64,000 nt of DNA from positions 124,001-188,000 of the forward strand of contig JAQMWT010000548.1 in the NCBI GenBank assembly GCA_029834535.1, read 5' to 3'. Position 1 is the stretch's first letter; each line of letters begins with the position of its first letter. Positions 970-40,640 of the stretch are shown in pieces. Origin of the DNA: Chrysophaeum taylorii. Lineage: Eukaryota; Sar; Pelagophyceae; Pelagomonadales; Pelagomonadaceae. The position numbers and the translations under genes were made by a program. Under the pieces are notes generated by a model. It did no database searches. It had not been told where the DNA came from and was given only the letters and a program-made list of their open reading frames with translations.

Positions 970-983
970 GATCCTTACCCTAA

Positions 984-4129: not shown

Positions 4130-4206
4130 TACCCCACAAACCCACCCACATCCTTCATGCTCCCCACACACACCCCCCTCTTAGCAGTCGACATTTAAAG
4201 ACAAAC

Positions 4207-5440: not shown

Positions 5441-5502
5441 CCTACCTGATCCTTACTCTCGCGCCTGCCTGATCCTTGCCCTAAATCGAGGGACAGGCAC
5501 AT

Positions 5503-6830: not shown

Positions 6831-6879
6831 CAGACAGACAAACATCTGTCGATTAGTAGTTAAGAAGAAACAAGTGCAG

Positions 6880-7190
6880 GCCAGTAAGTTCACCTACTCC
6901 CAATCTCTAACCCCAGTAAGTTCACCTGGTTCCCAGTAAGTTTCATATAAGTTCACCTGGTCAGTAAGTTCACCTAGCTCACACCAACTCCTTTGAGCTC
7001 GTCGCTCTCGCCTCCGCCAATCTAAGCTGCTTCGATCCGCACGCGCCGCCTACCTTTGAGTGAGTTTACTCTAAAATCCCTTTGCTCTAAAACCCCAGTA
7101 TGTTCACCTGGTCCCAGTAAGTTCACCTGGTCACTATATTCACCTATCCCAATCTCAAACCCCAGTTAGTTCACCTGGTCCCAGTAAGTT
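6880..7190. repeat. Minisatellite spacer
   Basis: Imperfect AGTAAGTTCACCTGGTCCCA units flank a middle part shared with the spacers at 4340 and 6040. No gene was seen. Confidence 0.7.
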
Positions 7191-7800
7191 CACCTACAGT
7201 GCGCGTGTAGACGCCGGAGGGGGCTTATCGGTATTGCGGAGCACGTGTGAGGTAGGGTGGAGTCGTCGACTCAGAAGAGCATATTCTCGGGGTTGCCGAT
7301 CGACAGAGAGCCACGTAGAGCTGGACGTGACAGAAGACGGGCTTGTGGGCAAGAGGACGCCGACCTCGCGGGGCGTCTGGCCCTGGCTCTTGGTGATCGT
7401 TTGGCGTCGGCGGGCCTTACGGGATACAGGTTGGAGGAGCCTCGGTGACAACGACACGATCGATCATGTATCTGGTACCGTTGCAGTGGCCGTGCGACGG
7501 GTCGAGGTTGCGAAGACTTTAAGCTCGCGATCAAAGTCAGCATGCCGTTGGTTGTCAGGGAGTTCAAAACTCGACTGTAAAGAGCGAGGCGTCGTCTTCC
7601 GACCCAACCTAGTCGGCCGAAAAGAACTCCGACGCCTCGTCTCCGGGAAAAAAAGGCCGCGGTCATGCGCGCGTTGTCAGCATCGACAACATCGTTTCGA
7701 CGGGGCGTGAGAATGGCGCGCTGAAAGAGCCGCCGCGGGTCGTGGAAATAGTCTGCGAGGTCGCCGTAGACGGCTTGGAGGATCACTGTCTGGCTCTCGC
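7191..7800 (-). pseudogene. Helitron helicase C-terminal fragment, copy 4
   Basis: TITKSQGQTPREVGVLL and AILTPRRNDVVDADNARMTA are readable on the minus strand, the latter in a longer open frame at 7271-7786. The copy differs from the others in the segment between these motifs and the C-terminal HVQLYVAL region. It is a decayed remnant. Confidence 0.7.
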
Positions 7801-7914
7801 TTCTACCTGATCCTTACTCTCGCGCCAACCTGATCCTTACCCTAAATCGAGGGACAAACAAACAAAGAGACAGACAGACAGACAAACATCTGTCGATTAG
7901 TAGTTAGGACAAGT

Positions 7915-8049
7915 GCAGGCCAGTAAGTTCACCTAGTCCCAATCTCTAACCCTAGTAAGTTCACCTGGTCTGGTCCCAGTTTCACTTGGTCACTCAGCTC
8001 ACCTAGTCCCAATCTCCAACCCCAGTAAGTTCACCTGGTCCCAGTAAGT
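7915..8049. repeat. Minisatellite spacer, short
   Basis: A few AGTAAGTTCACCTAGTCCCA-type units precede helicase fragment 5. The preceding stretch 7801-7914 holds CCTGATCCTTACCCTAAATC, a CAGA run and ACATCTGTCGATTAGTAGTT. Confidence 0.65.
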
Positions 8050-8667
8050 TCACCTACAGTGCGCGTGTAGACGCCGTGAGGGGGCTTGTCGGTATTGCGC
8101 AGCACGTGTGGGGTAGGGTGGAGTCGTCGACCCAGATGAGTACATCTCCTCGGGGTTGCCGATCGACAGAGAGCCACGTAGAGCTGGACGTGGCAGAAGA
8201 CGGGCTTCGCCAAGAGGACGCCGACCTCGCGGGGCGTCTGGCCCTGGCTCTTGGTGATCGTTTGGCGTCGGCGGGCCTTACGGGATACAGGTTGGAGGAG
8301 CCTCGGTGACAACGACACGATCGATCATGTATCTGGTACCGTTGCAGTGGCCGTGCGACGGGTCGAGGTTGCGAAGACCTTAAGCTCGCGATCAAAGTCA
8401 GCATGCCGTTGGTTGTCAGGGAGTTGAAAACTCTACTGTAAAGAGCGAGGCGTCGTCTTCCGACCCAGCCTAGTCAGCCGAAAAGAACTCCGACGCCTCG
8501 TCTCCGGGAAAAAAAGGCCGCGGTCATGCGCGCGTTGTCAGCATCGACAACATCGTTTCGACGGGGCGTGAGAATGGCGCGCTGAAAGAGCCGCCGCGGG
8601 TCGTGGAAATAGTCTGCGAGGTCGCCGTAGACGGCTTGGTGGATCACTGTCTGGCTCTCGCGCCTAC
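8050..8667 (-). pseudogene. Helitron helicase C-terminal fragment, copy 5
   Basis: This is the clearest copy. TITKSQGQTPREVGVLLAKP, VFCHVQLYVALCRSATPR and, further upstream on the minus strand, VYGDLADYFHDPRRLFQ are readable. Relative to known Helitron helicases it corresponds to the last part of the PIF1-like domain only. Several frame breaks. Confidence 0.72.
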
Positions 8668-8877
8668 CTGATCCTTACTCTCGCGCCTGCCTGATCCTTA
8701 CCCTAAATCGAGGGACAAACAGACAAACAGACAAACAGACAGACAAACATCTGTCGATTAGTAGTTAGGACAAACAAACAAACAAACAAACAAACAAACA
8801 AACAAACAAACAAACAAACAAACAAACAAACAAACAAACAAACAAACAAACAAAACATCTGTCGATTAGTAGTTAGG
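8668..8877. repeat. CAGA/CAAA microsatellites with a repeated 3' tag
   Basis: CCTGATCCTTACCCTAAATC is followed by a short CAAACAGA run, ACATCTGTCGATTAGTAGTT, then (CAAA)n from about 8771 to 8853, and the ACATCTGTCG tag again. The duplicated tag suggests unequal exchange or two successive tail events. Confidence 0.75.
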
Positions 8878-19123: not shown

Positions 19124-20530
19124 ATGATGCTAAGCCACTGCGTGCAATACGCGTGGGCTTTTTTTGACCCGATAAACCCGATTACGAGACCTGTGGACTC
19201 GCCGCCGGTTTCTCTACGATTTAAGGACGAAAACCCACGACCGATCAAGATGACGCCTTACAGGTTGACGCCAGCGAAGCTCGATTGTCTCAGAAAGCAG
19301 ATCACCGAGTGGTGCCGCGATGGAGTCATCCGACCGGCGAACTCTCCGATGGGATTTCCTGTGCTGATGCTGCCCAAGAAGGGAGCAGAGATCGGGACGT
19401 CGAACGCTTTTCGTGCTGCAGTCGACTTACGTCAGCTCAACGATCGGCAGGTCAATGATAGTTGGCCGAATATTCGCCAAGATGACGCGTTGGCCTTTCT
19501 TGCCTTGCGCCGTAGGCGGACTTGCATTGACATTCGATGGGGATACCACAACCTGCGTTTGGACGCCGCCGCTCAGGACGCCGTCACGATGGTTAGCCCA
19601 CTCGGAGCCCATAGTTTCTTGCGCTTGCCTCTGGGAGTGAAAACAGCAGGAGCTCTTTTCTGTAAGCAGATGGCCAGCGATTTGTCAGAATGGATGTATA
19701 AGGACTTGGTCGCGTTTGTCGACGATATTATGATGGGATCGGACGACCTCCACCGTCACTTACAAGTCTTGATTGAAGTACTGTGCCACTTAGCACAACG
19801 AGGATACAGTGGACGAACAGCGAAGTTTCACCTCCTCAAAGATGAAATCGAGTTTCTGGGACACATTTCGACTCCGGAAGGCTTGAAGCCGAATCCTAAG
19901 ACGTTAGAAGCGTTGCAGCAGATGCCGATCCCCGGAACGCTGCCGAACACGTCTCCGAAGACCCAGATTCGATCTTTCATCGGCATGAGCAACTATTGCC
20001 GCCGATATGTGAAGAATTATTCGAAGATTGTGGAGCCGTTGAGGCGATTGTGTCTCGAGGGCGTGCCGTTCAAGTGGACGCCCGAGTGCCAAAAGGCGTG
20101 GGATACGATCATCGAAGCCTTGGTGGACTCTCGCGGAGTCTATCACCCGGACTACGATCTTCCCTTTCAGATCCGCTCGGATGCTTCCAAGGACGGCCTG
20201 GGCGCGTATCTTTTCCAGCTCGTGGAAGTCACAGACGACACCGGAAAGGTGACACGAGAGGAACGAGTGATCGAGTATTGGAGCCGAGCTGTGCCGAGAG
20301 AAATGCGGAACTATGAGCCCCGTCGGCTAGAGCTACTGGCAGTTATTCTTTCTCTCGAACATTTTCGCTCTTACATTGAAGGACACAAGACGGTCCTCGA
20401 AACGGATCACCGCAATTTGACGTTCTTGCGGAAGGCGACACATTCGTCTGGGCAGTTGGCTCGATGGGCGATGCGACTTGCCACTTTGATCCTGAACTGG
20501 GCTACAAACCAGGGAAGTCACCGGGAATGA
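19124..20530 (+). other. Reverse transcriptase and RNase H region of the fossil element
   Basis: RT motifs include GFPVLMLPKKG, AVDLRQLNDRQVND, LPLGVKTAGALF and the catalytic FVDDIMMGSDD, followed by a connection segment (RSFIGMSNYCRRYVKNYSK) typical of Ty3/gypsy. RNase H follows with FQIRSDASKDGLGAYLFQ and ETDHRNLTFL. Confidence 0.9.
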
Positions 20531-20859: not shown

Positions 20860-22640
20860 TAATTTGACTTTTGAAGAGACTGCCAAGGAACAGATCACTG
20901 ACGCCACTTGCGAAGACATTCGTCATCGCATGGCTCAGGGGCATACTGTTCGCCGACAAGAGGCTAAGATTCGCTATCAAGTTGTGAAGGGTGTCCTCTA
21001 CCGTGTCGCGCCTGATGCTCATCCAATGATAGTCGCGCCCCGCAGAGACTGCCAAGGAACAGATCACTGACGCCACTTGCGAAGACATTCGTCATCGCAT
21101 GGCTCAGGGGCATACTGTTCGCCGACAAGAGGCTAACATTCGCTATCAAGTTGTGAAGGGTGTCCTCTATCGTGTCGCGCCTGATGCTCATCCAATGATA
21201 GTCGCGCCCCGCACCGTGCGGAAGCGCATCATCAGACATTACCATGATACCCCTCTCAATGGTGGTCACATGGGTCGTGACAGTACTGTGCAATCGATAC
21301 TTGAACGTTTTTGGTGGCCCCACATGTCAAACGAAGTGGGCAGATACATCGCTGGATGTTTGGTGTGTAAGAAGTCCCGCACGCCAGAACCCAAGTGACC
21401 TGGTCTTCTTCAGCAACCAGTGTATGACGGCGACTGCGCCGTCATCTGCATGGGTGTGTTCGGACCTTTGCCCAGTGCAGGTCCCGAGACGTATCTCATG
21501 GTGTTCTTCGATCCATTTTCTCATTTCCTGATTCTCGACGTGCTGCACCATAAGACTGCTGAGGCGATCCTCGAGTCTTTCGTCGCGAATATCTTGCTCA
21601 GGGGGTACTTGCCTCTGATGATTCGTACTGACAATGGTACAGAGTTCGTCAACAAATGGATGGAAGAGTTTTGTCAGCTCTTCAACATGCGGTACAGCAC
21701 TACGATTCCGCATCATGCTCAAGCAAATCCGGCTGAGCGGGTCAACCGCTTTATTAAGGCCTTTTTCCGTGCGTGCCTTCAGGACCGACACATCACGGAC
21801 TGGCCTGCTTTTGCAGAGTATATCGCGTTCTGCTATAATCGCAAGATCATCCCGGGTACGCAGATTTCTCCGTTCATGCTTCGCCTCAATCGACGGCTGC
21901 TGCTTCCGACTGATTACACGATCATGGATCTGGACGCCCGACGTTTGCCGAAAACTCGCTCTGATGTTGTGTCAGAGACCCGCGAGAAATTGAAGTTCTA
22001 CACCGCTACGGTGAATGATGCTCGCAAGAAAGCTCTCCAGAAGCAAAGGCTCGCTTACAATGCGGACCATGTTGATGTTGAGTATGAAGAGGGATCGCAT
22101 GTTTTGCTCTACATTCCTTTTCTTCAGAACAAGCTTCGACCGGAATGGAGCGGCCCGTTTAATATCGTGGAACGCCTGTGTCCTGTCACCTACAAGATCG
22201 AGTCTCTCGACTCTCCGCCCGAACGCCGTTATGTTCATGTTAGTCAGATCACCCCTGTGATGGTTTCTCCAGTGGTCGATCGAGCCGTGCCTAAGCCCAA
22301 GGAAACCTTTCGGAGCGATTTTAAGCACGGTAAGTTCGTTGTCTTTCGGATTCCAGATCGCAAACGGTCCGATTGGCGCAAGAAGATCTACGTGGCTGAA
22401 GTTTATGAGCCTTATGATTACGCGAACGATCGAGTAGCTCTGCATTTCTACTCTGACCTCGGTCCGCAAGACAAGGTCTCCTACTACAAGCCCACCTCAC
22501 ATCTCTCTACTCGCAAGCTCAAGCCGGAGTACAAGGACGTGGACGGTCGCAGTTTCACCGACAAGTCCAAGGTCAACAGCAGTACCACTCCCTGTGTCAC
22601 CGACTTCGCTCCCCACCACGCGAGATCGATCTGTTGATTC
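20860..22640 (+). other. Integrase region of the fossil element
   Basis: An HHCC zinc-binding module (HYHDTPLNGGHMGRD and CLVCKKSR) precedes a DDE core with IRTDNGTEFVN and HHAQANPAERVNRFIKAF. A C-terminal SH3-like part follows (LRPEWSGPFNIVERLCPVTY). No chromodomain was recognised. Confidence 0.85.
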
Positions 22641-23084: not shown

Positions 23085-24909
23085 GAGATCCGCCGTGTTG
23101 TGGAGAGAGAGAAACGTTGGACACAACAACGATAAGAGAGAAGAAGCAACCCATGATCAACCCCTTCATCACATACCGAAACGCAGAAATTGAAATCAAA
23201 TAATCGCGCACGTCCAAACGAAAACCACAAGTCAGACTCCCACAGATTGATGAGCCCCCAACGTGAGCTCGAAACGTGCTCAGGTAGCCGGCGCAAACTT
23301 ACCAACCGGCTGATTACAATTTCGCAAATATTCGCCACACTCTTTAAGATGTATACTGGCAATGCGTGCGTTTACGAACCTGGGAGGACACCAAACTCCG
23401 CACAGACTCTACACGGACTGCACACAGACTGCACGCAGTCTATAGTCTGCTAATTCGCCAAGCAAATCCGCCGGTTTACCCCGCAGAAAAATGCAGCAGC
23501 AAACCCATCAGACTCCGACCAAGTGAGAGTTCGCAACATGAGCTCAAAGAAAACGCGCGCACGAAGCCGCAGCAGTTCACCCATCAGATTCCCTCAACGG
23601 AGCAACAAAAGCATCCAACACAAAAAAAGTCAACAATCTCACCAACCGTTCCCCGCTTATTCACCAAATTCTTCTTGCGCTTCTGTCACCGACGTCGAGT
23701 ACGATTCAAGGTTCTACCAGGCCATTTCAGCGCCATCGCCAGCTCAATCCGGTTCGCGGACAACAAACACCCTGCAGCACGGCATCGCCAACTGCGTCAT
23801 TTTGATCTGCAAAAAGGCCCAATGTCACCGAATACACACGAGCTCGATCCGCCTAAAGACAACACCAGCAACATGCCGGGTGCGACGTAGCCGGTCGCGA
23901 CCGTCGCCCTGCCGGTTGTACGCGCTGCGTCACAGGTTGTACGCGCTGCGTCACAACTGAATCGTCCCGAGTTTACTAGCTCCACACGAAATAATATCCG
24001 CAGTGGAACGTACAATTGACTGCTCCCCGCTTGAGCATTCAAATCCGCCGCCACGACCGGATCAAGGCCATATGCTACCTGCAGTCGCGCCCACCTCCGT
24101 TCTCGCAGCTAAGCAACCCCCGCCTCAAGGTTGCAGTTCCGTACCTACAAGAAGTTGCTCGGCATTGGCCTTGAGAAACTGCGCCAGTTGAGCTGTTAGA
24201 GCCTTGAATGCCGCACAATTCACCTCTTCGCGCTACATCAAAGAATGAACCGCGTCTTGACCACCGGCCTACGCACGCTGACGTCTGCGGGAAAGTCTCC
24301 GCGACGCAAGCGCGCTGGATGCGCCTTGGCCGGCGACGTCGACAACGAGCGCATTTCGCATCCGACGAGGTACAAAAGTCGTTCTTGACGTCGCGTCGTC
24401 GTCGCGAAGCACGCACACCGCACTCCATCGATCCTCGTCGTCACCGCCGTCACCACCGTCCGAACCACTGCTTTTCACAACCCCAAAATCGACGATTTTC
24501 CACAATGGTGCAGCGACGTTCTCGTCCTCCCTAATCCTACTTTTAGTTAGCTAGTCATTTTTATTTGACGTCGACCTCGGCGCGAGACTGAGAACATACC
24601 CCCTAATCTCCCCTCCCGATGATCTGATGTTACAGGCATTTTCAATGCTTGTATGACAAAAAAGCGCACAAGGGAAGGAGATGGCAGTCAATACTCGAAA
24701 GCTGTCGTCGGTATGTGCGTGGTGGCGGGAAGATGAAGACGTGGTGCTCGTAATTCATGCTGGTCCGCCGCCGCAAAGCTAAACCAAGCGCATTTACTAG
24801 CTGACTACACTTGAATCGACCGGAGTCATGGACAAAAGCACCGCCGGCTCTGGAAGTTTCACGCTCGTGCACCGCTCAAGCCGCAATGGAGTGTTGGGAC
24901 GAGAAGAGC
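23085..24909. other. Downstream part of array unit 1, no gene recognised
   Basis: Several open frames of 60-170 codons exist on both strands, mostly basic Arg/Ser/Pro-rich. Examples are a plus-strand frame at 23523-23960 (SSKKTRARSRSSSPIRFPQR) and one at 24208-24534. None matches a family I know and none shows a clear exon structure. Unit 1 has a tandem duplication of GGTTGTACGCGCTGCGTCAC near 23915-23955, where units 2 and 3 have a single copy. The matching stretches are 29147-30905 and 35136-36893. Confidence 0.4.
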
Positions 24910-27047
24910 TCAGCCGCGCAAACGACGGTCTCTTTCGTCGCAGAAGGTGCCTCCCCAGCCGTTTGCACAATCGCATTCGCACACGTTCGACCCAAGGTCC
25001 AAGAATTTGGCGTTGTTCTTGCAGAGTTGACGGCCCTCGGTCTCGCAGCAAGTGCCGTAGTGACCGTTTTGACATACGCACGCCATAGCCTCCTTATCAA
25101 AGGATCTTCCGCGAGCCGAGCATAGGTTGTTGATGGTGATGCGGCTCTCGCAGTCGCCGTCGCCGTCGGCGTCGATGCCGATACTGTCGGACTGCACGTC
25201 ACAGTTGACGTTGAGCGTCTCCGGAAGGCACGCGTCAACTACGGTGCCGTACGGGTCGTCGCACGCGAACTGGCCGGGGCCCAGCACAGTTGTGTCATCG
25301 CAGCTGGGCGTGAGATCGATTTGAAAGGCGCCTCTGCTTTGAAAATGGTACGAAAGGTCGCCATCGCCGTAGGCAAAGAGGAAGTACCCACCCCAGTTGT
25401 CAAAAATCGCGATTTCATCGGCCGGGGCCAGAGACCGGGTGAAGTAAAACACGAGGTTCCCGTCGTCGTCGAGAGTAGTCGAAACGTCGACGAGCGTCTG
25501 CGCGTCGGCGAGCGTGGGTCCCGACCAATCGTACGGCGCGATATTGTAGTTCATCGGCACGTTGCCTCCGGTGGCGATGATTGCGTTGGTGTCGGGCATC
25601 TGATCGTCGAGCGAAACGCCGAGCGCAGCCCAACCGTCGCCAGATTTCACCACTTTGGCTCGAATGGCCGGATAGAAGTCGGCGTCGCCGCCTTCCGTCT
25701 CGAGTGTCCAATAAAAAGCGTAGCTTTCGTCCGGCCGAACAACATACTCGAAGTTGGGGTCGTCTGAAAGGTACATCTCGTCGCACAGCGTCGGCGCGAT
25801 GCTTGGGGTCGACGTCGGCGCGACGATCGGAGCCGACGTCGGCAGGAAGGTGATGGAGTCAGGATCCAAGGTCGGCTTGGGTGTGGGAGCTTCGGTCGGG
25901 CTCGGAATCGTTGGCTGCGAGCTCGGACTCGGGACCGTGGGCATGGGCACAGGCTTGGCCGACGTCGGTGGCAGCGTCACCGTCGGCGCCTCGGTAGTGA
26001 TCCCTTCAATCTCGACGTCCATGCATGCGGCCCAAACTTGGGGTGTGCTCGAGCACCACCACACCCACTGCATCACCGTCTTGCCCGACGGGAAGTCGTC
26101 CGGAATCTTCACTTTCACCTCCGAGACTTGACCCCTGGTGCACTCCTCGTTCGAGTTGGCGCAACCAAAGTCGCGGCCATAGCCGCCCTGGCAATGGTGG
26201 AAGCGTCCCGGGTCGTCACATCCCCAGCCCTCCTTGCACCGCGGCCCGCGTTCACAATTGTTCTCTTCGACGTCGTCGCATCGCAGCTCGCCCGCCTCGT
26301 AGCACTTCTCGAGAGCGAGCATTTCCTCTGCGGTCGGTGGCACGTCTCCCAGGAGCTTGGCGACGAGATCCTGGTCGCGGCACAGCCGGTACGAGAAAAG
26401 GCCTCCGTGGTCAGCCGTGGCGCACCAGCGCATGTTGTAAGTCTCGCCGGCCGTGAGGTTCGCGGTGCTGGGGTAATTGAAGCCGAAGTTGTAGTTCTTG
26501 TCGGTGTCTTTAGTGCCGCAGATGCCGTACGGCGTGACGTGCGCGTCATTTGTGACGCGGTCCTCCCACGGCGTCGAGTCCGGGTCGGCAGCAGGGTGCT
26601 TACCGTACCACGGTCGGCCGCTAACGTCGACATCGGGGTAGATGTCGTCCACAAAGAGGCACGTTGGGCAGTAATGGCGGTACCCCTCTTGCCACATCCA
26701 AACATTGCGTGAGATCGGCCAGTCTTGGAACCTGGGATCGAGTTTGACGTGAGGTTCGCGCTATAGCCACGCGCGCACGATCAGGACACATAGACAAGCG
26801 AGCGGACTCTAGCACACGCAGACACACGGACTACTCGAAGACGTAGACAAGCGAGCAGGCGCAAGCACGCACGGAATCACGGGGGGGGGGGGATATCCGA
26901 CATAGACAAGCGCGGTGTTTTTGCACACACGCGCTCTTGCAGGGGGAGATCGATCCCCCAGAACAAGAGAGGGACTCTGCTAAAAACTCACCCGTGCGAT
27001 GAAGAGCGATCGACGAGGGCTGCGGCGACGATGAGCTTGAGGTGCAT
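24910..27047 (-). CDS. Secreted LPMO-like protein with DOMON and EGF-like domains, copy 1
   Basis: Exon 1 is 26992-27047 and exon 2 is 24910-26731 (260-nt intron, donor GG|GTGAGT, acceptor CCCAG|G), giving 625 aa. Exon 1 encodes a short signal peptide (MHLKLIVAAALVDRSSS). Cleavage there leaves HG as the mature N-terminus, continuing FQDWPISRNVW, as in copper-dependent lytic polysaccharide monooxygenases. A second His (residue 127) lies in WCATADHGGLFSYRLC, and a C-terminal motif VMQWVWWCSSTPQVWAACMD follows; together they resemble family AA15. A Pro/Thr-rich linker (262-333) leads to a DOMON domain (about 335-495) with both usual haem ligands, Met397 (DDQMPDTNAIIA) and His481 (SYHFQSRG). A Cys-rich EGF-like tail follows (CVCQNGHYGTCC, CECDCANGWGGTFC). 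Predicted role: extracellular oxidative attack on a polysaccharide with a built-in electron donor. This is inferred from motifs; the LPMO family assignment is tentative. Confidence 0.8.
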
Positions 27048-29146
27048 GTCTTGACGGTGGAACAGGGCTGTGTTGAAAACGACCTCTTCCCGAAGTGGGG
27101 CGTTGTGTAATCGTCTGGTGACGTTGTGCAATCGTCTGGCGACTCAACGAACAATCGCTCCAGTAAATAGATACAAGGTCTTGGCTGCACATATACCAAG
27201 CCTCGTGAAATATAGATACGCTTGTGGCAAATTGATCTCGAAAACCAAGAAAATACTTTGTACATCCGAGAAAGGTGAGGGGGTTCTGCGCCTGAAGCGA
27301 GACTACAACTGTACTGCTCGTAAAAGTCCCAGAAATCTTGACGCGAGTACCGCGTAGAGTAATCACAAAGTCGGTTTCCTGCGATATCTGTGACTCTCGC
27401 GCAAGAGTCAGCACGAATCATAACCCAGGCTCTCGGCCGTCGCCATTAGTGGTCGTCGTCGACCAGGGGAACTGGTGGCGGGGAGACCCGGTGTCTGCCG
27501 CGTCGCCGGGTGGGGCCGGCGCCCGCATGTAGGCCGGGTAGCGTGCTTTTCAACTTGCGCGCCTTCTCGATCCCAGAGCAAGCTGTTTGGGCACTCCTGG
27601 TCGTGCGCGCCTCGACCGCAATACATTCCGCCTAGTCGCTGCGCTCACCATGATCTACCTTCTCCGCTTACTCAACAATCACCACCACATCGCGGCTCCT
27701 TCGGTTCGCGGCTGCTGCTCGTATTCGCCGCGCTCGTCGTCGCCGCGACGCTTCTGCCACAAAACGCCCAATTGTGCCCTGGTCAGCTTCATCGGTCGGC
27801 GGTCGGTGGTATCTTTCTTTAGCACGGTGCGCGATCTTTTAGCCCGCCGAGAGCCGGGGGGTTGGGGGAGCCAAGAGAGGCTCGACCGTTGTTCGGCCGC
27901 GCCAGAATGCGGCGCGGACAGCATACAGGCGAGGATGAACAAGAAAGGAAGCTGCAACAAGGGCAGGGCGCAGTGCAGAGAGAGCGCGGCCGAGGAGATG
28001 AAGGGCCCGAAGCCAGGGGCTGGGAGTTCGCAATCGTGCGGGGCGGCGAAATAAAAAGGAGGGGCGTCATCAAGGGCAGAGCGAGAGGACGTCCAGAGGA
28101 GGTGCACGGACCACTCACAGTCAATCAATGTCTTCGACGCCGAACACTTCATCATCGACTTCCGTATCGCGCCGATGCCGCCGTCGAGTTTCTTCCAGTG
28201 CTGAAACCAATGGACTTTCTGTACTGGTTGGTAGATAAGGAAGTAAGTCAGCAAGTTTTATTCTCTCCTGCTCCTTCGTCCTTCTGCTCGTTTGACCTCG
28301 TCTTGAGTCGCCCTCTCTGCTTGCAACATTTCTTCGGCCTTCTTGAATCTGTTGCCATTTGGTTCAAATTTGCTTCCCATTGTTTGCTCCTATACTGCTT
28401 CCTTCTTTGCGGTCCTCGTCCTTTCCCCCCTCATTTCCTCTTCTTTTTCTCCCTTGGCTCCTCCCCTTTACGATTCCATTTTCTTCTTCTTTGCTGCCCT
28501 CACTGGCCATCCTCTGTTTCTGTCTTTTCCTCTGCGCTCATCCATTCTGGCTTTTTGAGCCTTGAAGTCGCTAACAATAACGTCAAGACGACGTTGCTCC
28601 TCATCTGCGAACGCCGGCGAGGAAAGACTACTAGATACTAAATGTCGGCGGCACCAGTCGCCGTGGTGGCGAATTGTTGCACTGAAATGCCTATACTCTC
28701 GTGTGGTATTGTTTTCTGATATTTGAAAAACTGCCGACGCCCCTCGATCCGACGGCGTCGGTCAGGCTTCGCCCCTGACAACAGCAGGTTGTAAAAAGTG
28801 GGAGGGCAGAAAAAGTAAGCAAATGGAAAAAGAGACAAAGCGACCCAGGGTCCGCGGCCCGGTACTTTCTGAGCATATAATGGCTCGCGTTGATCTCTCT
28901 TTGCGACCAAATGCTGGCGCTTGGGACTCGGCGGGTGGTGGCACCATGAGAGCGTCGCGATGGAGCACACGAGAAGCGTTGTCGCCTCGGTTAGTAGTGA
29001 CCAGATCGCAAGCTTGCGCATCAACCTAGGGGCGACCTTCACGTTCTTCGTTGTGGGGTCAGTTGTGGTTGCGCGTTCGTTCGGGAAGGCGAGATGCGAC
29101 CCTTGTAATCTTCGGCTTGCCTGACCGGGGGAAAATGAACACGATT
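27048..29146. other. Upstream part of array unit 1, possible minus-strand exon
   Basis: No complete gene is recognised. On the minus strand a short frame ending at 28121 reads RHRRDTEVDDEVFGVEDID, an acidic stretch that looks like a protein C-terminus and is kept in all units, preceded by charged AG-rich sequence. Another minus-strand frame at 28640-29234 contains a hydrophobic MRKLAIWSLLTEATTLLVCS. A plus-strand pyrimidine-rich tract lies at 28260-28560. Matching stretches are 33046-35135 and 39034-40640. Confidence 0.3.
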
Positions 29147-30905
29147 GAGATCCACCATGTTGTGGAGAAAGTGAAAGCATACTACAAAGATCAGAGAGAA
29201 GAAGCAAGCAAGACATCCAAGCATGCACGTCCAAAGGGAAACCACATTTCAGACTCCCACCGAGGTATTAGTCCACAACGTGAGCTCGAAACGTGCTCAG
29301 GTCGCCGGCGCAAACTCACCAACCGGCTGAATTCAATTTCGCAAATACTCGCCACACTCTTTAAGATATATACTGGCAATGTGTACGTTTACGAACCTGG
29401 GAGGACACGAAACTCCACACAGACTCTACACGGACTGCACACAGACTGCACGCAGTCTATAGTCTGCTAATTCGCCAAGCAAATCCGCCGGTTTACCCCG
29501 CAGAAAATTGCAGCAGCAAACCCATCAGACTCCGACCAAGTGAGAGTTCGCAACATGAGCTCAAAGAAAACGCGCGCACGAAGCAGCAGCAGTTAACCCA
29601 TCAGATTCCCTCAACGGAGCAACAAAAGCATCCAACACAAAAAAAGTCAACAATCTCACCAACCGTTCCCCGCTTCTTCACCAAATTCTTCTTGCCCTTC
29701 TGTCACCGACGTCGAGTACGATTCAAGGTTCTACCAGGCCACTTCAGCGCCATCGCCAGCTCAACCCGGTTCGCGGACAACAAACACCCTGCAGCACGGC
29801 ATCGCCAACTGCGTCATTTTGATCTGCAAAAAGGCCCAATGTCACCGAATACACACGAGCTCGATCCGCCTAAAGACAACACCAGCAGCATGCCGGGTGC
29901 GACGTAGCCGGTCGCGACCGTCGCCCTGCCGGTTGTACGCGCTGCGTCACAACTGAATCGTCCCGAGTTTACTAGCTCCACACGAAATAATATCCGCAGT
30001 GGAACGTACAATTGACTGCTCCCCGCTTGAGCATTCAAATCCGCCGCCACGACCGGATCAAGGCCATATGCTACCTGCAGTCGCGCCCACCTCCGTTCTC
30101 GCAGCTAAGCAACCCCCGCCTCAAGGTTGCAGTTCCGTACCTACAAGAAGTTGCTCGGCATTGGCCTCGAGAAACTGCGCCAGTTGAGCTGTTAGAGCCT
30201 TGAATGCCGCACAATTCACCTCTTCGCGCTACATCAAAGAATGAACCGCGTCTTGACCACCGGCCTACGCACGCTGACGTCTGCGGGAAAGTCTCCGCGA
30301 CGCAAGCGCGCTGGATGCGCCTTGGCCGGCGACGTCGACAACGAGCGCATTTCGCATCCGACGAGGTACAAAAGTCGTTCTTGACGTCGCGTCGTCGTCG
30401 CGAAGCACGCACACCGCACTCCATCGATCCTCGTCGTCACCGCCGTCACCACCGTCCGAACCACTGCTTTTCACAACCCCAAAATCGACGATTTTCCACA
30501 ATGGTGCAGCGACGTTCTCGTCCTCCCTAATCCTACTTTTAGTTAGCTAGTCATTTTTATTTGACGTCGACCTCGGCGCGAGACTGAGAACATACCCCCT
30601 AATCTCCCCTCCCGATGATCTGATGTTACAGGCATTTTCAATGCTTGTATGACAAAAAAGCGCACAAGGGAAGGAGATGGCAGTCAATACTCGAAAGCTG
30701 TCGTCGGTATGTGCGTGGTGGCGGGAAGATGAAGACGTGGTGCTCGTAATTCATGCTGGTCCGCCGCCGCAAAGCTAAACCAAGCGCATTTACAAGCTGA
30801 CTACACTTGAATCGACCGGAGTCATGGACAAAAGCACCGCCGGCTCTGGAAGTTTCACGCTCGTGCACCGCTCAAGCCGCAATGGAGTGTTGGGACGAGA
30901 AGAGC
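29147..30905. other. Downstream part of array unit 2, no gene recognised
   Basis: This is near-identical to the matching part of unit 1 except for the diverged first ~250 bp; the short tandem duplication seen in unit 1 near 23.93 kb is absent. Nothing further was recognised. Confidence 0.4.
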
Positions 30906-33045
30906 TCAGCCGCGCAAACGACGGTCTCTTTCGTCGCAGAAGGTGCCTCCCCAGCCGTTTGCACAATCGCATTCGCACACGTTCGACCCAAGGTCCAAGA
31001 ATTTGGCGTTGTTCTTGCAGAGTTGACGGCCCTCGGTCTCGCAGCAAGTGCCGTAGTGACCGTTTTGACATACGCACGCCATAGCCTCCTTATCAAAGGA
31101 TCTTCCGCGAGCCGAGCATAGGTTGTTGATGGTGATGCGGCTCTCGCAGTCGCCGTCGCCGTCGGCGTCGATGCCGATACTGTCGGACTGCACGTCACAG
31201 TTGACGTTGAGCGTCTCCGGAAGGCACGCGTCAACTACGGTGCCGTACGGGTCGTCGCACGCGAACTGGCCGGGGCCCAGCACAGTTGTGTCATCGCAGC
31301 TGGGCGTGAGATCGATTTGAAAGGCGCCTCTGCTTTGAAAATGGTACGAAAGGTCGCCATCGCCGTAGGCAAAGAGGAAGTACCCACCCCAGTTGTCAAA
31401 AATCGCGATTTCATCGGCCGGGGCCAGAGACCGGGTGAAGTAAAACACGAGGTTCCCGTCGTCGTCGAGAGTAGTCGAAACGTCGACGAGCGTCTGCGCG
31501 TCGGCGAGCGTGGGTCCCGACCAATCGTACGGCGCGATATTGTAGTTCATCGGCACGTTGCCTCCGGTGGCGATGATTGCGTTGGTGTCGGGCATCTGAT
31601 CGTCGAGCGAAACGCCGAGCGCAGCCCAACCGTCGCCAGATTTCACCACTTTGGCTCGAATGGCCGGATAGAAGTCGGCGTCGCCGCCTTCCGTCTCGAG
31701 TGTCCAATAAAAAGCGTAGCTTTCGTCCGGCCGAACAACATACTCGAAGTTGGGGTCGTCTGAAAGGTACATCTCGTCGCACAGCGTCGGCGCGATGCTT
31801 GGGGTCGACGTCGGCGCGACGATCGGAGCCGACGTCGGCAGGAAGGTGATGGAGTCAGGATCCAAGGTCGGCTTGGGTGTGGGAGCTTCGGTCGGGCTCG
31901 GAATCGTTGGCTGCGAGCTCGGACTCGGGACCGTGGGCATGGGCACAGGCTTGGCCGACGTCGGTGGCAGCGTCACCGTCGGCGCCTCGGTAGTGATCCC
32001 TTCAATCTCGACGTCCATGCATGCGGCCCAAACTTGGGGTGTGCTCGAGCACCACCACACCCACTGCATCACCGTCTTGCCCGACGGGAAGTCGTCCGGA
32101 ATCTTCACTTTCACCTCCGAGACTTGACCCCTGGTGCACTCCTCGTTCGAGTTGGCGCAACCAAAGTCGCGGCCATAGCCGCCCTGGCAATGGTGGAAGC
32201 GTCCCGGGTCGTCACATCCCCAGCCCTCCTTGCACCGCGGCCCGCGTTCACAATTGTTCTCTTCGACGTCGTCGCATCGCAGCTCGCCCGCCTCGTAGCA
32301 CTTCTCGAGAGCGAGCATTTCCTCTGCGGTCGGTGGCACGTCTCCCAGGAGCTTGGCGACGAGATCCTGGTCGCGGCACAGCCGGTACGAGAAAAGGCCT
32401 CCGTGGTCAGCCGTGGCGCACCAGCGCATGTTGTAAGTCTCGCCGGCCGTGAGGTTCGCGGTGCTGGGGTAATTGAAGCCGAAGTTGTAGTTCTTGTCGG
32501 TGTCTTTAGTGCCGCAGATGCCGTACGGCGTGACGTGCGCGCCATTTGTGACGCGGTCCTCCCACGGCGTCGAGTCCGGGTCGGCAGCAGGGTGCTTACC
32601 GTACCACGGTCGGCCGCTAACGTCGACATCGGGGTAGATGTCGTCCACAAAGAGGCACGTTGGGCAGTAATGGCGGTACCCCTCTTGCCACATCCAAACA
32701 TTGCGTGAGATCGGCCAGTCTTGGAACCTGGGATCGAGTTTGACGTGAGGTTCGCGCTATAGCCACGCGCGCACGATCAGGACACATAGACAAGCGAGCG
32801 GACTCTAGCACACGCAGACACACGGACTACTCGAAGACGTAGACAAGCGAGCAGGCGCAAGCACGCACGGAATCACGGGGGTGGGGGGGGATATCCGACA
32901 TAGACAAGCGCGGTGTTTTTGCACACACGCGCTCTTGCAGGGGGAGATCGATCCCCCAGAACAAGAGAGGGACTCTGCTAAAAACTCACCCGTGCGATGA
33001 AGAGCGATCGACGAGGGCTGCGGCGACGATGAGCTTGAGGTGCAT
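30906..33045 (-). CDS. Secreted LPMO-like protein with DOMON and EGF-like domains, copy 2
   Basis: Exon 1 is 32990-33045 and exon 2 is 30906-32727, with a 262-nt intron. The 625-aa product differs from copy 1 only at residue 81 (Gly instead of Asp) as far as I can read. The signal peptide, mature His, second His, DOMON Met and His ligands, linker and Cys-rich tail are all kept. The intron differs by a 2-base length change in a G-run. All features suggest a functional gene copy. Confidence 0.8.
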
Positions 33046-35135
33046 GTCTTGACGGTGGAACAGGGCTGTGTTGAAAACGACCTCTTCCCGAAGTGGGGCG
33101 TTGTGTAATCGTCTGGTGACGTTGTGCAATCGTCTGGCGACTCAACGAACAATCGCTCCAGTAAATAGATACAAGGTCTTGGCTGCACATATACCAAGCC
33201 TCGTGAAATATAGATACGCTTGTGGCAAATTGATCTCGAAAACCAAGAAAATACTTTGTACATCCGAGAAAGGTGAGGGGGTTCTGCGCCTGAAGCGAGA
33301 CTACAACTGTACTGCTCGTAAAAGTCCCAGAAATCTTGACGCGAGTACCGCGTAGAGTAGTCACAAAGTCGGTTTCCTGCGATATCCTGTGACTCTCGCG
33401 CGGGAGTCAGCACGAATCATAACCCAGGCTCTAGGCCGTCGCCATTTGTGGTCGTCGACCAGGGGAACTGGTGGCGGGGAGACCCGGTGTCTGCCGCGTC
33501 GCCGGGTGGGGCCGGCGCCCGCATGTAGGCCGGGTAGCGTGCTTTTCAACTTGCGCGCCTTCTCGATCCCAGAGCAAGCTGTTTGGGCACTCCTGGTCGT
33601 GCGCGCCTCGACCGCAATACATTCCGCCTAGTCGCTGCGCTCACCATGATCTACCTTCTCCGCTTACTCAACAATCACCACCACATCGCGGCTCCTTCGG
33701 TTCGCGGCTGCTGCTCGTATTCGCCGCGCTCGTCGTCGCCGCGACGCTTCTGCCACAAAACGCCCAATTGTGCCCTGGTCAGCTTCATCGGTCGGTGGTA
33801 TCTGTCTTTAGCACGGTGCGCGATCTTTTAGCCCGCCGAGAGCCGGGAGGGTGGGGGAGCCAAGAGAGGCCCGACCGGTGTTCGGCCGCGCCAGAATGCG
33901 GCGCGGACAGCATACAGGCGATGATGAACAAGAAAGGAAGCTGCAACAAGGGCAGGGCGCAGTGCAGAGAGAGCGCGGCCGAGGAGATGAAGGGCCCGAA
34001 GCCAGGGGCTGGGAGTTCGCAATCGTGCGGGGCGGCGAAATAAAAAGGAGGGGCGTCATCAAGGGCAGAGCGAGAGGACGTCCAGAGGAGGTGCACGGAC
34101 CACTCACAGTCAATCAATGTCTTCGACGCCGAACACTTCATCATCGACTTCGGTATCGCGCCGATGCCGCCGTCGAGTTTCTTCCAGTGCGGAAACCAAT
34201 GGACTCTCTGTACTGGTTGGTAGATAAGGAAGTAAGTCAGCAAGTTTTATTCTCTCCTGCTCCTTCGTCCTTCTGCTCGTTTGACCTCGTCTTGAGTCGC
34301 CCTCTCTGCTTGCAACATTTCTTCGGCCTTCTTGAATCTGTTGCCATTTGGTTCAAATTTGCTTCCCATTGTTTGCTCCTATACTGCTTCCTTCTTTGCG
34401 GTCCTCGTCCTTTCCCCCCTCATTTCCTCTTCTTTTTCTCCCTTGGCTCCTCCCCTTTACGATTCCATTTTCTTCTTCTTTGCTGCCCTCACTGGCCATC
34501 CTCTGTTTCTGTCTTTTCCTCTGCGCTCATCCATTCTGGCTTTTTGAGCCTTGAAGTCGCTAACAATAACGTCAAGACGACGTTGCTCCTCATCTGCGAA
34601 CGCCGGCGAGGAAAGACTACTAGATACTAAATGTCGGCGGCACCAGTCGCCGTGGTGGCGAATTGTTGCACTGAAATGCCTATACTCTCGTGTGGTATTG
34701 TTTTCTGATATTTGAAAAACTGCCGACGCCCCTCGATCCGACGGCGTCGGTCAGGCTTCGCCCCTGACAACAGCAGGTTGTAAAAAGTGGGAGGGCAGAA
34801 AAAGTAAGCAAATGGAAAAAGAGACAAAGCGACCCAGGGTCCGCGGCCCGGTACTTTCTGAGCATATAATGGCTCGCGTTGATCTCTCTTTGCGACCAAA
34901 TGCTGGCGCTTGGGACTCGGCGGGTGGTGGCACCATGAGAGCGTCGCGATGGAGCACACGAGAAGCGTTGTCGCCTCGGTTAGTAGTGACCAGATCGCAA
35001 GCTTGCGCATCAACCTAGGGGCGACCTTCACGTTCTTCGTTGTGGGGTCAGTTGTGGTTGCGCGTTCGTTCGGGAAGGCGAGATGCGACCCTTGTAATCT
35101 TCGGCTTGCCTGACCGGGGGAAAATGAACACGATT
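33046..35135. other. Upstream part of array unit 2, no complete gene recognised
   Basis: The content is the same as 27048-29146 with scattered substitutions and a small indel near 33794 relative to unit 1, which changes the reading of a minus-strand frame (33785-34243). Because that frame is not conserved between units, I do not call it a gene. Confidence 0.35.
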
Positions 35136-36893
35136 GAGATCCACCATGTTGTGGAGAAAGTGAAAGCATACTACAAAGATCAGAGAGAAGAAGCAAGCAA
35201 GACATCCAAGCATGCACGTCCAAAGGGAAACCACATTTCAGACTCCCACCGAGGTATTAGTCCACAACGTGAGCTCGAAACGTGCTCAGGTCGCCGGCGC
35301 AAACTCACCAACCGGCTGAATTCAATTTCGCAAATACTCGCCACACTCTTTAAGATATATACTGGCAATGTGTACGTTTACGAACCTGGGAGGACACGAA
35401 ACTCCACACAGACTCCACACGGACTGCACACAGACTGCACGCAGTCTATAGTCTGCTAATTCGCCAAGCAAATCCGCCGGTTTACCCCGCAGAAAATTGC
35501 AGCAGCAAACCCATCAGACTCCGACCAAGTGAGAGTTCGCAACATGAGCTCAAAGAAAACGCGCGCACGAAGCAGCAACAGTTAACCCATCAGATTCCCT
35601 CAACGGAGCAACAAAAGCATCCAACACAAAAAAAGTCAACAATCTCACCAACCGTTCCCCGCTTCTTCACCAAATTCTTCTTGCCCTTCTGTCACCGACG
35701 TCGAGTACGATTCAAGGTTCTACCAGGCCACTTCAGCGCCATCGCCAGCTCAACCCGGTTCGCGGACAACAAACACCCTGCAGCACGGCATCGCCAACTG
35801 CGTCATTTTGATCTGCAAAAGGCCCAATGTCACCGAATACACACGAGCTCGATCCGCCTAAAGACAACACCAGCAGCATGCCGGGTGCGACGTAGCCGGT
35901 CGCGACCGTCGCCCTGCCGGTTGTACGCGCTGCGTCACAACTGAATCGTCCCGAGTTTACTAGCTCCACACGAAATAATATCCGCAGTGGAACGTACAAT
36001 TGACTGCTCCCCGCTTGAGCATTCAAATCCGCCGCCACGACCGGATCAAGGCCATATGCTACCTGCAGTCGCGCCCACCTCCGTTCTCGCAGCTAAGCAA
36101 CCCCCGCCTCAAGGTTGCAGTTCCGTACCTACAAGAAGTTGCTCGGCATTGGCCTCGAGAAACTGCGCCAGTTGAGCTGTTAGAGCCTTGAATGCCGCAC
36201 AATTCACCTCTTCGCGCTACATCAAAGAATGAACCGCGTCTTGACCACCGGCCTACGCACGCTGACGTCTGCGGGAAAGTCTCCGCGACGCAAGCGCGCT
36301 GGATGCGCCTTGGCCGGCGACGTCGACAACGAGCGCATTTCGCATCCGACGAGGTACAAAAGTCGTTCTTGACGTCGCGTCGTCGTCGCGAAGCACGCAC
36401 ACCGCACTCCATCGATCCTCGTCGTCACCGCCGTCACCACCGTCCGAACCACTGCTTTTCACAACCCCAAAATCGACGATTTTCCACAATGGTGCAGCGA
36501 CGTTCTCGTCCTCCCTAATCCTACTTTTAGTTAGCTAGTCATTTTTATTTGACGTCGACCTCGGCGCGAGACTGAGAACATACCCCCTAATCTCCCCTCC
36601 CGATGATCTGATGTTACAGGCATTTTCAATGCTTGTATGACAAAAAAGCGCACAAGGGAAGGAGATGGCAGTCAATACTCGAAAGCTGTCGTCGGTATGT
36701 GCGTGGTGGCGGGAAGATGAAGACGTGGTGCTCGTAATTCATGCTGGTCCGCCGCCGCAAAGCTAAACCAAGCGCATTTACAAGCTGACTACACTTGAAT
36801 CGACCGGAGTCATGGACAAAAGCACCGCCGGCTCTGGAAGTTTCACGCTCGGGCACCGCTCAAGCCGCAATGGAGTGTTGGGACGAGAAGAGC
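35136..36893. other. Downstream part of array unit 3, no gene recognised
   Basis: This is near-identical to the matching part of unit 2. No coding sequence was recognised. Confidence 0.4.
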
Positions 36894-39033
36894 TCAGCCG
36901 CGCAAACGACGGTCTCTTTCGTCGCAGAAGGTGCCTCCCCAGCCGTTTGCACAATCGCATTCGCACACGTTCGACCCAAGGTCCAAGAATTTGGCGTTGT
37001 TCTTGCAGAGTTGACGGCCCTCGGTCTCGCAGCAAGTGCCGTAGTGACCGTTTTGACATACGCACGCCATAGCCTCCTTATCAAAGGATCTTCCGCGAGC
37101 CGAGCATAGGTTGTTGATGGTGATGCGGCTCTCGCAGTCGCCGTCGCCGTCGGCGTCGATGCCGATACTGTCGGACTGCACGTCACAGTTGACGTTGAGC
37201 GTCTCCGGAAGGCACGCGTCAACTACGGTGCCGTACGGGTCGTCGCACGCGAACTGGCCGGGGCCCAGCACAGATGTGTCATCGCAGCTGGGCGTGAGAT
37301 CGATTTGAAAGGCGCCTCTGCTTTGAAAATGGTACGAAAGATCGCCATCGCCGTAGGCAAAGAGGAAGTACCCACCCCAGTTGTCAAAAATCGCGATTTC
37401 ATCGGCCGGGGCCAGAGACCTGGTGAAGTAAAACACGAGGTCCCCGTCGTCGTCGAGAGTAGTCGAAACGTCGACGAGCGTCTGCGCGTCGGCGAGCGTG
37501 GGTCCCGACCAATCGTACGGCGCGATATTGTAGTTCATCGGCACGTTGCCTCCGGTGGCGATGATTGCGTTGGTGTCGGGCATCTGATCGTCGAGCGAAA
37601 CGCCGAGCGCAGCCCAACCGTCGCCAGATTTCACCACTTTGGCTCGAATGGCCGGATAGAAGTCGGCGTCGCCGCCTTCCGTCTCGAGTGTCCAATAAAA
37701 AGCGTAGCTTTCGTCCGGCCGAACAACATACTCGAAGTTGGGGTCGTCTGAAAGGTACATCTCGTCGCACAGCGTCGGCGCGATGCTTGGGGTCGACGTC
37801 GGCGCGACGATCGGAGCCGACGTCGGCAGGAAGGTGATGGAGTCAGGATCCAAGGTCGGCTTGGGTGTGGGAGCTTCGGTCGGGCTCGGAATCGTTGGCT
37901 GCGAGCTCGGACTCGGGACCGTGGGCATGGGCACAGGCTTGGCCGACGTCGGTGGCAGCGTCACCGTCGGCGCCTCGGTAGTGATCCCTTCAATCTCGAC
38001 GTCCATGCATGCGGCCCAAACTTGGGGTGTGCTCGAGCACCACCACACCCACTGCATCACCGTCTTGCCCGACGGGAAGTCGTCCGGAATCTTCACTTTC
38101 ACCTCCGAGACTTGACCCCTGGTGCACTCCTCGTTCGAGTTGGCGCAACCAAAGTCGCGGCCATAGCCGCCCTGGCAATGGTGGAAGCGTCCCGGGTCGT
38201 CACATCCCCAGCCCTCCTTGCACCGCGGCCCGCGTTCACAATTGTTCTCTTCGACGTCGTCGCATCGCAGCTCGCCCGCCTCGTAGCACTTCTCGAGAGC
38301 GAGCATTTCCTCTGTGGTCGGTGGCACGTCGCCCAGGAGCTTGGCGACGAGATCCTGGTCGCGGCACAGCCGGTACGAGAAAAGGCCTCCGTGGTCAGCC
38401 GTGGCGCACCAGCGCATGTTGTAAGTCTCGCCGGCCGTGAGGTTCGCGGTGCTGGGGTAATTGAAGCCGAAGTTGTAGTTCTTGTCGGTGTCTTTAGTGC
38501 CGCAGATGCCGTACGGCGTGACGTGCGCGTCATTTGTGACGTGGTCCTCCCACGGCGTCGAGTCCGGGTCGGCAGCAGGGTGCTTACCGTACCACGGTCG
38601 GCCGCTAACGTCGACATCGGGGTAGATGTCGTCCACAAAGAGGCACGTTGGGCAGTAATGGCGGTACCCCTCTTGCCACATCCAAACATTGCGTGAGATC
38701 GGCCAGTCTTGGAACCTGGGATCGAGTTTGACGTGAGGTTCGCGCTATAGCCACGCGCGCACGATCGGGACGCATAGACAAGCGAGCGGACTCTAGCACA
38801 CGCAGACACACGGACTACTCGAAGACGTAGACAAGCGAGCAGGCGCAAGCACGCACGGAATCACGGGGGTGGGGGGGGATATCCGACATAGACAAGCGCG
38901 GTGTTTTTGCACACACGCGCTCTTGCAGGGGGAGATCGATCCCCCAGAACAAGAGAGGGACTCTGCTAAAAACTCACCCGTGCGATGAAGAGCGATCGAC
39001 GAGGGCTGCGGCGACGATGAGCTTGAGGTGCAT
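36894..39033 (-). CDS. Secreted LPMO-like protein with DOMON and EGF-like domains, copy 3
   Basis: Exon 1 is 38978-39033 and exon 2 is 36894-38715, with a 262-nt intron. The 625-aa product differs from copy 1 at four readable positions: 77 (Arg to His), 153 (Ala to Thr), 444 (Asn to Asp) and 500 (Thr to Ser). None is a proposed copper or haem ligand. It is the most diverged of the three but still intact, which argues against simple decay after duplication. Confidence 0.8.
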
Positions 39034-40640
39034 GTCTTGACGGTGGAACAGGGCTGTGTTGAAAACGACCTCTTCCCGAAGTGAGGCGTTGTGTAATCGT
39101 CTGGTGACGTTGTGCAATCGTCTGGCGACTCAACGAACAATCGCTCCAGTAAATAGATACAAGGTCTTGGCTGCACATATACCAAGCCTCGTGAAATATA
39201 GATACGCTTGTGGCAAATTGATCTCGAAAACCAAGAAAATACTTTGTACATCCGAGAAAGGTGAGGGGGTTCTGCGCCTGAAGCGAGACTACAACTGTAC
39301 TGCTCGTAAAAGTCCCAGAAATCTTGACGCGAGTACTGCGTAGTAGTCACAAAGTCGGTTTCCTGCGATATCTGTGACTCTCGCGCAAGAGTCAGCACGA
39401 ATCATAACCCAGGCTCTCGGCCGTCGCCATTAGTGGTCGTCGTCGACCAGGGGAACTGGTGGCGGGGAGACCCGGTGTCTGCCGCGTCGCCGGGTGGGGC
39501 CGGCGCCCGCATGTAGGCCGGGTAGCGTGCTTTTCAACTTGCGCGCCTTCTCGATCCCAGAGCAAGCTGTTTGGGCACTCCTGTTCGTGCGCGCCTCGAC
39601 CGCAATACATTCCGCCTAGTCGCTGCGCTCACCATGATCTACCTTCACCGCTTACTCAACAATCACCACCACATCGCGGCTCCTTCGGGTCGTGGCTGCT
39701 GCTCGTATTCGCCGCGCTCGTCGTCGCCGCGACGCTTCTGCCACAAAACGCCCAATTGTGCCCTCGTCAGCTTCATCGGTCGGTGGTATCTGTCTTTAGC
39801 ACGGTGCGCGATCTTTTAGCCCGCCGAGAGCCGGGAGGGTGGGGGAGCCAAGAGAGGCTCGACCGGTGTTCGGCCGCGCCAGAATGCGGCGTGGACAGCA
39901 TACAGGCGATGATGAACAAGAAAGGAAGCTGCAACAAGGGCAGGGCGCAGTGCACAGAGAGCGCGGCCGAGGAGATGATGGGCCCGAAGCCAGGGGCTGG
40001 GAGTTCGCAATCGTGCGGGGCGGCGAAATTAAAAGGAGGGACGTCATCAAGGGCAGAGCGAGAGGACGTCCAGAGGAGGTGCACTGACCACAGTCAATCA
40101 ATGTCTTCGACGCCGAACACTTCATCATCGACTTCGGTGTCGCGCCGATGCCGCCGTCGAGTTTCTTCCAGTGCTGAAACCAATGGACTTTCTGTACTGG
40201 TTGGTAGATAAGGAAGTAAGTCAGCAAGTTTTATTCTCTCCTGCTCCTTCGCCCTACTGCTCGTTTGACCTCGTTTCCTCTTCTTTGTCTCCCTTGGCCC
40301 CTCCCCTTTGCGATTCCATTTTCTCTTATTTGCTCTCCTCACTGGTCATTCCATGTTTCTGTCTTTTCATCTGCGCTCATCCATTCTGGCTTTTCGAGCT
40401 TGGAAGTCGCTAACAATAACACCAAGACAACGTTGCTCCGTCCGAGAACGCCGGCGAGGAAAGACTACTAGATACTAAATGTCGGCGGCATCAGCCGCCG
40501 TGGTGGCGAAAGGCGGCGAATTATTGCAGTGAATTGCATGGCGTCGGTCAGGCACCCCCCCCTACAACACCATTTTGCGAAAAATGGGATTACAGAAAAG
40601 GGGAAAACGGAAAAAGAGACAAAGGTATGTTGTGAAAGAA
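39034..40640. other. Upstream part of array unit 3, shortened outer edge
   Basis: It follows units 1 and 2 to about 40250 and then shows deletions and substitutions to about 40640, where similarity ends. The minus-strand DEVFGVEDID frame (ending at 40094) extends here upstream to 40342 as a basic, Lys/Arg-rich sequence with KLADLLPYLPTSTESPL. It could be the last exon of an unrecognised gene. Confidence 0.3.

Follow-up and report, generated by a model that had tools for sequence, protein, structure and literature searches.

A stretch of DNA of 64,000 nucleotides from the pelagophyte alga Chrysophaeum taylorii (the whole stretch is called the window here) raises the question whether a copper-dependent LPMO and a haem domain that passes electrons to it can be carried by one protein chain. 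The combination of a polysaccharide-cutting copper enzyme with a haem electron donor is best known from separate fungal proteins. In our judgement it is an open question how LPMOs are reduced in nature, and a chain bearing both a copper and a haem-b site would allow electron delivery to be measured directly in a defined system of 1:1 stoichiometry. The cytochrome donors named for LPMOs in the available text of PMC8981238 are separate secreted dehydrogenases. C. taylorii is described as a bloom- and mucilage-forming alga (PMC6521808, accessible part). Its published assembly comprises 71 Mbp in 702 contigs according to the portion of PMC10366177 at hand, and a term search of the main text of that genome paper gave zero occurrences of 'polysaccharide', 'CAZy' and 'monooxygenase' (PMC10366177). 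Genome searches reported here were run on a C. taylorii assembly of 70.8 Mb in 697 contigs, to which the C numbers refer.

Gene structure and N-terminus of the encoded protein

The gene is encoded on the minus strand. Exon 1 (26992..27047) runs from the ATG to CAC-GG and encodes the signal peptide MHLKLIVAAALVDRSSS and His18 (codon 26996-26994), the predicted first residue of the mature protein. Signal peptide and cleavage site were assigned by eye and hydropathy. A predicted GT-AG intron of 260 nt in phase 2 (26732..26991) separates exon 1 from exon 2 (24910..26731), which ends with the stop codon. Joining and translation of both exons in frame yielded a protein of 625 aa with the predicted mature start HGFQDWPISRN. 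The same predicted intron measures 262 nt in two further tandem copies of the gene. The 625-aa frame is intact in all three copies of the window, and CTAYLR_008447 (P0002), a C. taylorii protein that was annotated separately, matches the window protein with 71% identity over 98% of the query length. The open frame, roughly 600 codons long, is therefore not a chance occurrence.

The entry for the window protein in the protein database (P0001) is a 595-aa form lacking exon 1. It could accordingly be argued that exon 1 is not joined at all and that the protein starts at an internal ATG without an N-terminal His. Such a gene-model artefact is very improbable, as intron position and frame are identical in all three tandem copies, a further copy on contig C362 encodes residues 1-19 too, and ten paralogs show leader and HG together without that intron. 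One of these is L017, the gene of P0002, in which the intron is found about a dozen codons further downstream and leader and HG lie within one exon; in the nine others, which are intronless, the hydrophobic leader runs uninterrupted into HG. These paralogs support the predicted exon join at His18. The signal-peptide exon ending in a His codon and the 260-nt intron proposed in the initial annotation are recovered with the same in-frame join, and the HGFQDWPISRN start, His18, His127, Met397 and His481 were all found where that annotation had placed them. The 625-aa LPMO-DOMON protein is probably secreted.

Tandem array and paralog family

Window positions 23208-40274 are made up of tandem units of about 6.0 kb starting at 23208, 29225 and 35214, the last being shorter, with 98-99% identity and one LPMO-DOMON gene per unit. 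Copy 2 is located at 30906..33045 (exon 1 33045-32990, exon 2 32727-30906) and copy 3 at 36894..39033 (exon 1 39033-38978, exon 2 38715-36894), both on the minus strand and both encoding an intact protein of 625 aa. Over the gene, their DNA is 99.86% and 99.49% identical to copy 1, respectively. Since the copies differ only slightly (dS 0 to 0.008), we read the array as a recent amplification; the alternative is an assembly error.

Upstream of the array, a reverse transcriptase/RNase H open frame (19124-20527, by Pfam) and an integrase-like open frame (21420-22637, by eye) constitute a retroelement. ACAA microsatellites are located at 5583-5920 (about 84 copies) and 8770-8854 (about 21 copies), either inside or flanking a repeated block that spans roughly 1-8800. 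At 48079-50453, near the LPMO array, two adjacent open frames carry EGF-like repeats scoring over the Pfam cut-off.

A genome search with the LPMO domain of a paralog detected 18 places, including the three window copies, C134, C376, C531, C581 and partial matches at C672 and C667. Six similar LPMO genes reside on C309, C495 (two), C578, C584 and C677. Some of the near-identical LPMO genes may be alleles. Contig C362 harbors an LPMO-DOMON copy with 98.8% identity and one TGA in the DOMON (243403-245208, L011) as well as, about 8 kb from it, a decayed copy with several stops (252489-254003), two fragments of which are among the 18 places. LPMO-linked DOMONs are found on C548, the contig of the window (three), on C362 (one with a stop, one decayed) and on C134. 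In 9 of the 11 paralog loci fetched the LPMO frame has no DOMON, so a DOMON is not required for an LPMO in this genome.

By eye, the AA13-like LPMOs of L009, L010, L012-L015, L018 and the metagenomic protein P0003 carry, behind Pro/Thr linkers, Cys-rich modules with the pattern CCWW...C...C...C, possibly uncharacterised binding modules. L016 (C581) encodes an AA13-like LPMO with a Cys-rich stretch behind it and, close to the C-terminus, a hydrophobic segment, also seen by eye, which may be a membrane anchor.

Among the best 8000 candidates by shared words (256 in one search), protein-database searches returned only the window protein (P0001), CTAYLR_008447 (P0002) and P0003, an LPMO in which Pfam detected no DOMON. 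Patterns derived from the LPMO part only gave 17 matches in viral and 124 in prokaryote contigs, none of which was confirmed.

The N-terminal domain and its kinship to AA13

Precursor residues 18-262 (26002..26731, minus strand, with His18 in exon 1) form an AA13-like LPMO domain. The Pfam model LPMO_10 matched the exon-2 frame with 45.2 bits at a curated cut-off of 23 (E 2.2e-11) and P0002 with 48 bits. The best match among the sequences of solved structures was AoAA13 (4opb); the single sequence gave E 3.1e-17, a seven-sequence profile 1.3e-41. With this profile it was followed by 7p3u (E 9.2e-6), which we take to be an AA16, the AA15 5msz and 5aa7 (E 0.033), presumably an AA10. On these matches the N-terminal domain of the window protein is an LPMO, a strongly supported assignment; the LPMO-like domain recognized in the initial annotation has thereby gained AoAA13 as its nearest solved relative. 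As a separate matter, an AA15 identity was rejected on score (E 1.5e-3 for 5msz versus 1.3e-41 for AA13).

Residue correspondence with AoAA13 was counted by hand along the printed alignment. His18 stands at His1, the His of DHGGLFSYRLC (His127, codon 26409-26407, minus strand) at His91, and Trp252 (codon 26034-26032, minus strand) at the axial Tyr224. The N-terminal His and DHGG are present in all 11 sequences examined, namely the window protein, P0002 and nine intronless paralogs, and the two His are kept together with the Cys framework. His18 and His127 are the predicted histidine brace.

According to the available text of PMC4338556, His91 and Tyr224 are invariant across AA13. At the axial place we find Trp (QVWAACMD) in the window protein and P0002 and Phe (EVF) in the nine paralogs, so that Trp252 stands in for the invariant Tyr. 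A CBM20 was not found by Pfam on the chain of the window protein; one match exists elsewhere in the genome. As the domain is related to AA13 but fails to show its axial Tyr, starch should not be assumed as the substrate.

The DOMON domain and its b561-linked relatives

Residues 335-500 (25288..25785, minus strand) were assigned to a DOMON domain from a weak Pfam match and from kinship to b561-linked DOMONs. PF03351 matched below its cut-off of 32.7 bits, with 19.1 bits (E 1.6e-3) in the exon-2 frame, 22.9 bits (E 1.1e-4) for the domain alone and 15.9 bits for the DOMON of P0002. A genome search with PF03351 listed three places, and the window's own DOMON was not among them. Among the b561-linked loci, DOMON-1 scored 33.1 bits at C28, which is over the cut-off, and 27.5 at C306, which is under it; when six DOMONs were aligned, only four of them were recognized by the Pfam model at E 0.1. 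A search of the genome with the window DOMON itself detected 14 places, among which C306, C164 and C28 have two DOMONs apiece. A b561 match over the cut-off is located in the same open frame at C306 and C164, and just downstream in another frame at C28. The N-terminal extensions of these DOMON-DOMON-cytochrome b561 loci (L055, L054 and L056, respectively) differ; by eye, they consist of long repeats in C164 and of very Cys/Ser-rich repeats in C28.

Eight domains were aligned and used for tree construction: window copy 1, P0002 and the six b561-linked DOMONs. The other two window copies, four places on C362 and a C489 DOMON from the PF03351 search were left out. In this alignment the LPMO-borne DOMONs share 48-54% identity with DOMON-1 of the three b561 loci (47-55% when the genome search with the window DOMON is included) and 38-43% with DOMON-2. 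The unrooted tree separates an LPMO-borne pair (support 100), a DOMON-1 group (76) and a DOMON-2 group (100), with the LPMO-borne DOMONs as a pair of their own that is not nested within the DOMON-1 sequences. The identities show the kinship; the separate placement notwithstanding, the LPMO DOMON probably derives from DOMON-1 of the alga's DOMON-DOMON-b561 proteins, a direction of transfer that we infer.

The window DOMON contains three Met and one His. Only Met397 (codon 25599-25597) and His481 (codon 25347-25345), both on the minus strand and both candidate haem ligands, are kept in all eight aligned domains, while the other two Met are not. They are spaced by 84 residues, with a range of 82-89 across the eight domains. 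This fits the spacing of M90 and H174, the proposed haem-b ligand pair of Arabidopsis HYP1 (PMC10784544). In the accessible part of the same source HYP1 is described as a DOMON-b561 protein that moves electrons from ascorbate through the plasma membrane and has Fe(III) and Cu(II) reductase activity.

The initial annotation had named a DOMON with Met/His haem ligation. The b561-locus kinship and the conservation of Met397 and His481 in eight of eight sequences speak for this assignment, whereas the Pfam scores stay under the cut-off, the PF03351 genome search does not list the domain and no usable fold was obtained. AlphaFold models calculated from four-row alignments reached a pLDDT of 29.7 for P0002 (602 aa) and of 34.5 for the window DOMON (166 aa) and were unusable. 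Comparison of DOMON profiles with PDB sequences gave no meaningful match, the best hits being unrelated proteins with E 0.89 (2 rows) and 0.32 (6 rows).

We also considered the DOMON as a marker of an AA8 domain, which the CDH-cyt profile (PF16010) did not uphold. The profile is absent from the Pfam matches of the window protein at E 10, a search whose filters drop most weak matches, and gave zero matches in the genome search, where control genomes gave zero as well. GMC matches in the genome number six.

In the literature, haem or sugar binding is ascribed to DOMON domains (Iyer 2007, cited in the available text of PMC6950343 and PMC10784544). On an alternative reading the LPMO is real but the DOMON would be a sugar- or surface-binding targeting module comparable to a CBM, with soluble reductants feeding the copper directly. 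Known LPMO accessory domains are mainly carbohydrate-binding, although only 19% of sequences have one (PMC6950343, accessible part), a CBM is reported on 65% of AA13 enzymes (PMC8615602, available text), and by eye most of the fetched paralogs bear Cys-rich modules where the DOMON would be. A purely binding role is nevertheless rather unlikely in our view: among three Met and one His, exactly the two candidate haem ligands are invariant in all eight domains, and the nearest relatives of the DOMON adjoin b561 electron carriers.

Linker, tail and selection

LPMO and DOMON are connected by a Pro/Thr-rich linker (residues 263-334; 25786..26001, minus strand). The DOMON is followed by a Cys-rich, weakly EGF-like tail comprising residues 501-625 and the stop codon (24910..25287, minus strand). 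All EGF-like Pfam matches are under the cut-off, the best being EGF_Teneurin with 20.5 bits in P0002 at a cut-off of 24.3. From the EGF-like tail of the initial annotation we thus retain a Cys-rich region with sub-threshold EGF matches. A tail with 44% identity is present in the C376 paralog, which lacks a DOMON; this domain has therefore either entered the chain between LPMO and tail or disappeared from C376.

We estimated dN/dS for the different parts of the protein from one sequence pair, copy 1 and L017, with dS about 0.87. Values were 0.114 for the LPMO (residues 32-262), 0.238 for the DOMON, 0.161 for the tail and 0.837, that is near neutral, for the linker. This comparison shows purifying selection on LPMO, DOMON and tail and hardly any on the linker. 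Maintenance of three domains around a linker that is nearly free to change is what would be expected for a tether.

These values also bear on the possibility that the protein is no longer lytic and acts as an extracellular copper/haem protein on an LPMO fold, for instance in metal handling, as a reductase, in adhesion or in matrix cross-linking. The axial Trp is present in all five type-A copies read (the three window copies, P0002 and the C362 copy), the tail is EGF-like below threshold and open frames with EGF domains are located in the neighborhood, and of the further copies one is interrupted by a stop codon and one is decayed. We give this explanation little probability, since neither the two His nor the Cys framework has been lost, the lowest dN/dS of the protein (0.11) falls on the LPMO domain and W is a listed option in the LPMO motif N/Q/E-x-F/Y/(W) given in the available text of PMC6950343.

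Proposed mode of action

In our best reading of the sequences, copper catalyst and electron donor are located on one chain. We propose, as a moderately probable arrangement, a secreted, AA13-related copper LPMO flexibly tethered to a haem-b DOMON which is kin to b561-linked DOMON-1 and would supply the copper with electrons. In this arrangement we infer that haem and copper are bound and that electrons cross from one domain to the other, and likewise the reductant and the substrate. The haem held by Met397 and His481 would take up an electron outside the cell, either from a membrane DOMON-b561 protein, for which the genome contains three loci, or from a small reductant, e.g. ascorbate or a phenol. 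The electron would then pass from the haem to the copper at His18 and His127 while the flexible linker holds both domains together. This relay is proposed by analogy with CDH and AA12 enzymes, whose attached b-type cytochrome domain passes electrons on to LPMOs (PMC8981238, accessible part). The reduced copper would oxidatively cut a glycan, perhaps of the alga's own mucilage or wall, of prey or of detritus. The initial annotation had called the enzyme 'self-contained', which is too strong, because the DOMON haem would only relay electrons and must itself be reduced by another donor.

A more tentative version, which we consider less likely than not, has the LPMO powered from the membrane: electrons of cytosolic ascorbate would pass through DOMON-b561 to its outer DOMON, from there to the related DOMON of the secreted enzyme and finally to the tethered copper. 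If true, extracellular glycan cleavage would be driven and switched by the redox state of the cell without a sugar dehydrogenase. More generally, a chain with both sites would link LPMO action with b561 trans-membrane electron export in C. taylorii.

Beyond the initial annotation, the analysis adds the three tandem copies, the AA13 kinship and the b561-linked relatives of the DOMON. It would place AA13-like LPMOs in a photosynthetic stramenopile.

Comparison with known systems

One sentence of a 2019 paper by Voshol names sequences with DOMON/EGF and LPMO_10 as an early-branching cluster in a profile tree (PMC6950343, available text). The three domain names are shared with the window protein; that text does not say whether they are on one chain or whether the sequences are orthologous, and it differs from the present description in giving no sequence, domain order, ligand or mechanism. 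In the literature searched, which mostly lay outside subscription journals and was in part represented by partial texts, we found no further account of an LPMO fused to a DOMON or a cytochrome. By term search, 'cytochrome', 'AA8' and 'DOMON' are absent from the main text of a 2023 review on LPMO modularity (PMC10154629). In the accessible part of PMC6950343, AA13 is stated to be over 90% fungal. AA13 genes were reported in 2023 from marine flagellates with higher expression in heterotrophs, and the phototrophs compared there had a single annotated AA13 sequence (PMC10268365, available text). As far as our searches show, the b561 kinship of the LPMO DOMON and the AA13 kinship are new.

AA15 LPMOs of algae, oomycetes and animals are likewise eukaryotic LPMOs of the LPMO_10 type and occur in algae. 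They match the window protein only weakly, the fusions named for them are CBM1, CBM14, GH18 and GH19, and the word 'cytochrome' is absent from the accessible text on them. AA8 domains of cellobiose dehydrogenase and AA12 pyranose dehydrogenase share the proposed role, a haem-b domain reducing the copper of an LPMO, but according to the available text they sit on the dehydrogenase and meet the LPMO as a separate protein.

With AA13, represented by AoAA13 (4opb), the window protein has in common the N-terminal His, the second His in DHGGxF/YxxRxC and a Cys-rich domain of similar size. It differs in its axial Trp compared to the invariant Tyr224, in that a CBM20 was not found, in the added DOMON and Cys-rich tail and in its algal instead of fungal origin. 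With the DOMON-b561 proteins (CYBDOM; Arabidopsis HYP1 and the loci on C306, C164 and C28) it shares the kept Met/His pair and, within the genome, the kinship to DOMON-1. There the DOMON is joined to a transmembrane b561, whereas the DOMON of the window protein is on a predicted secreted chain together with an LPMO.
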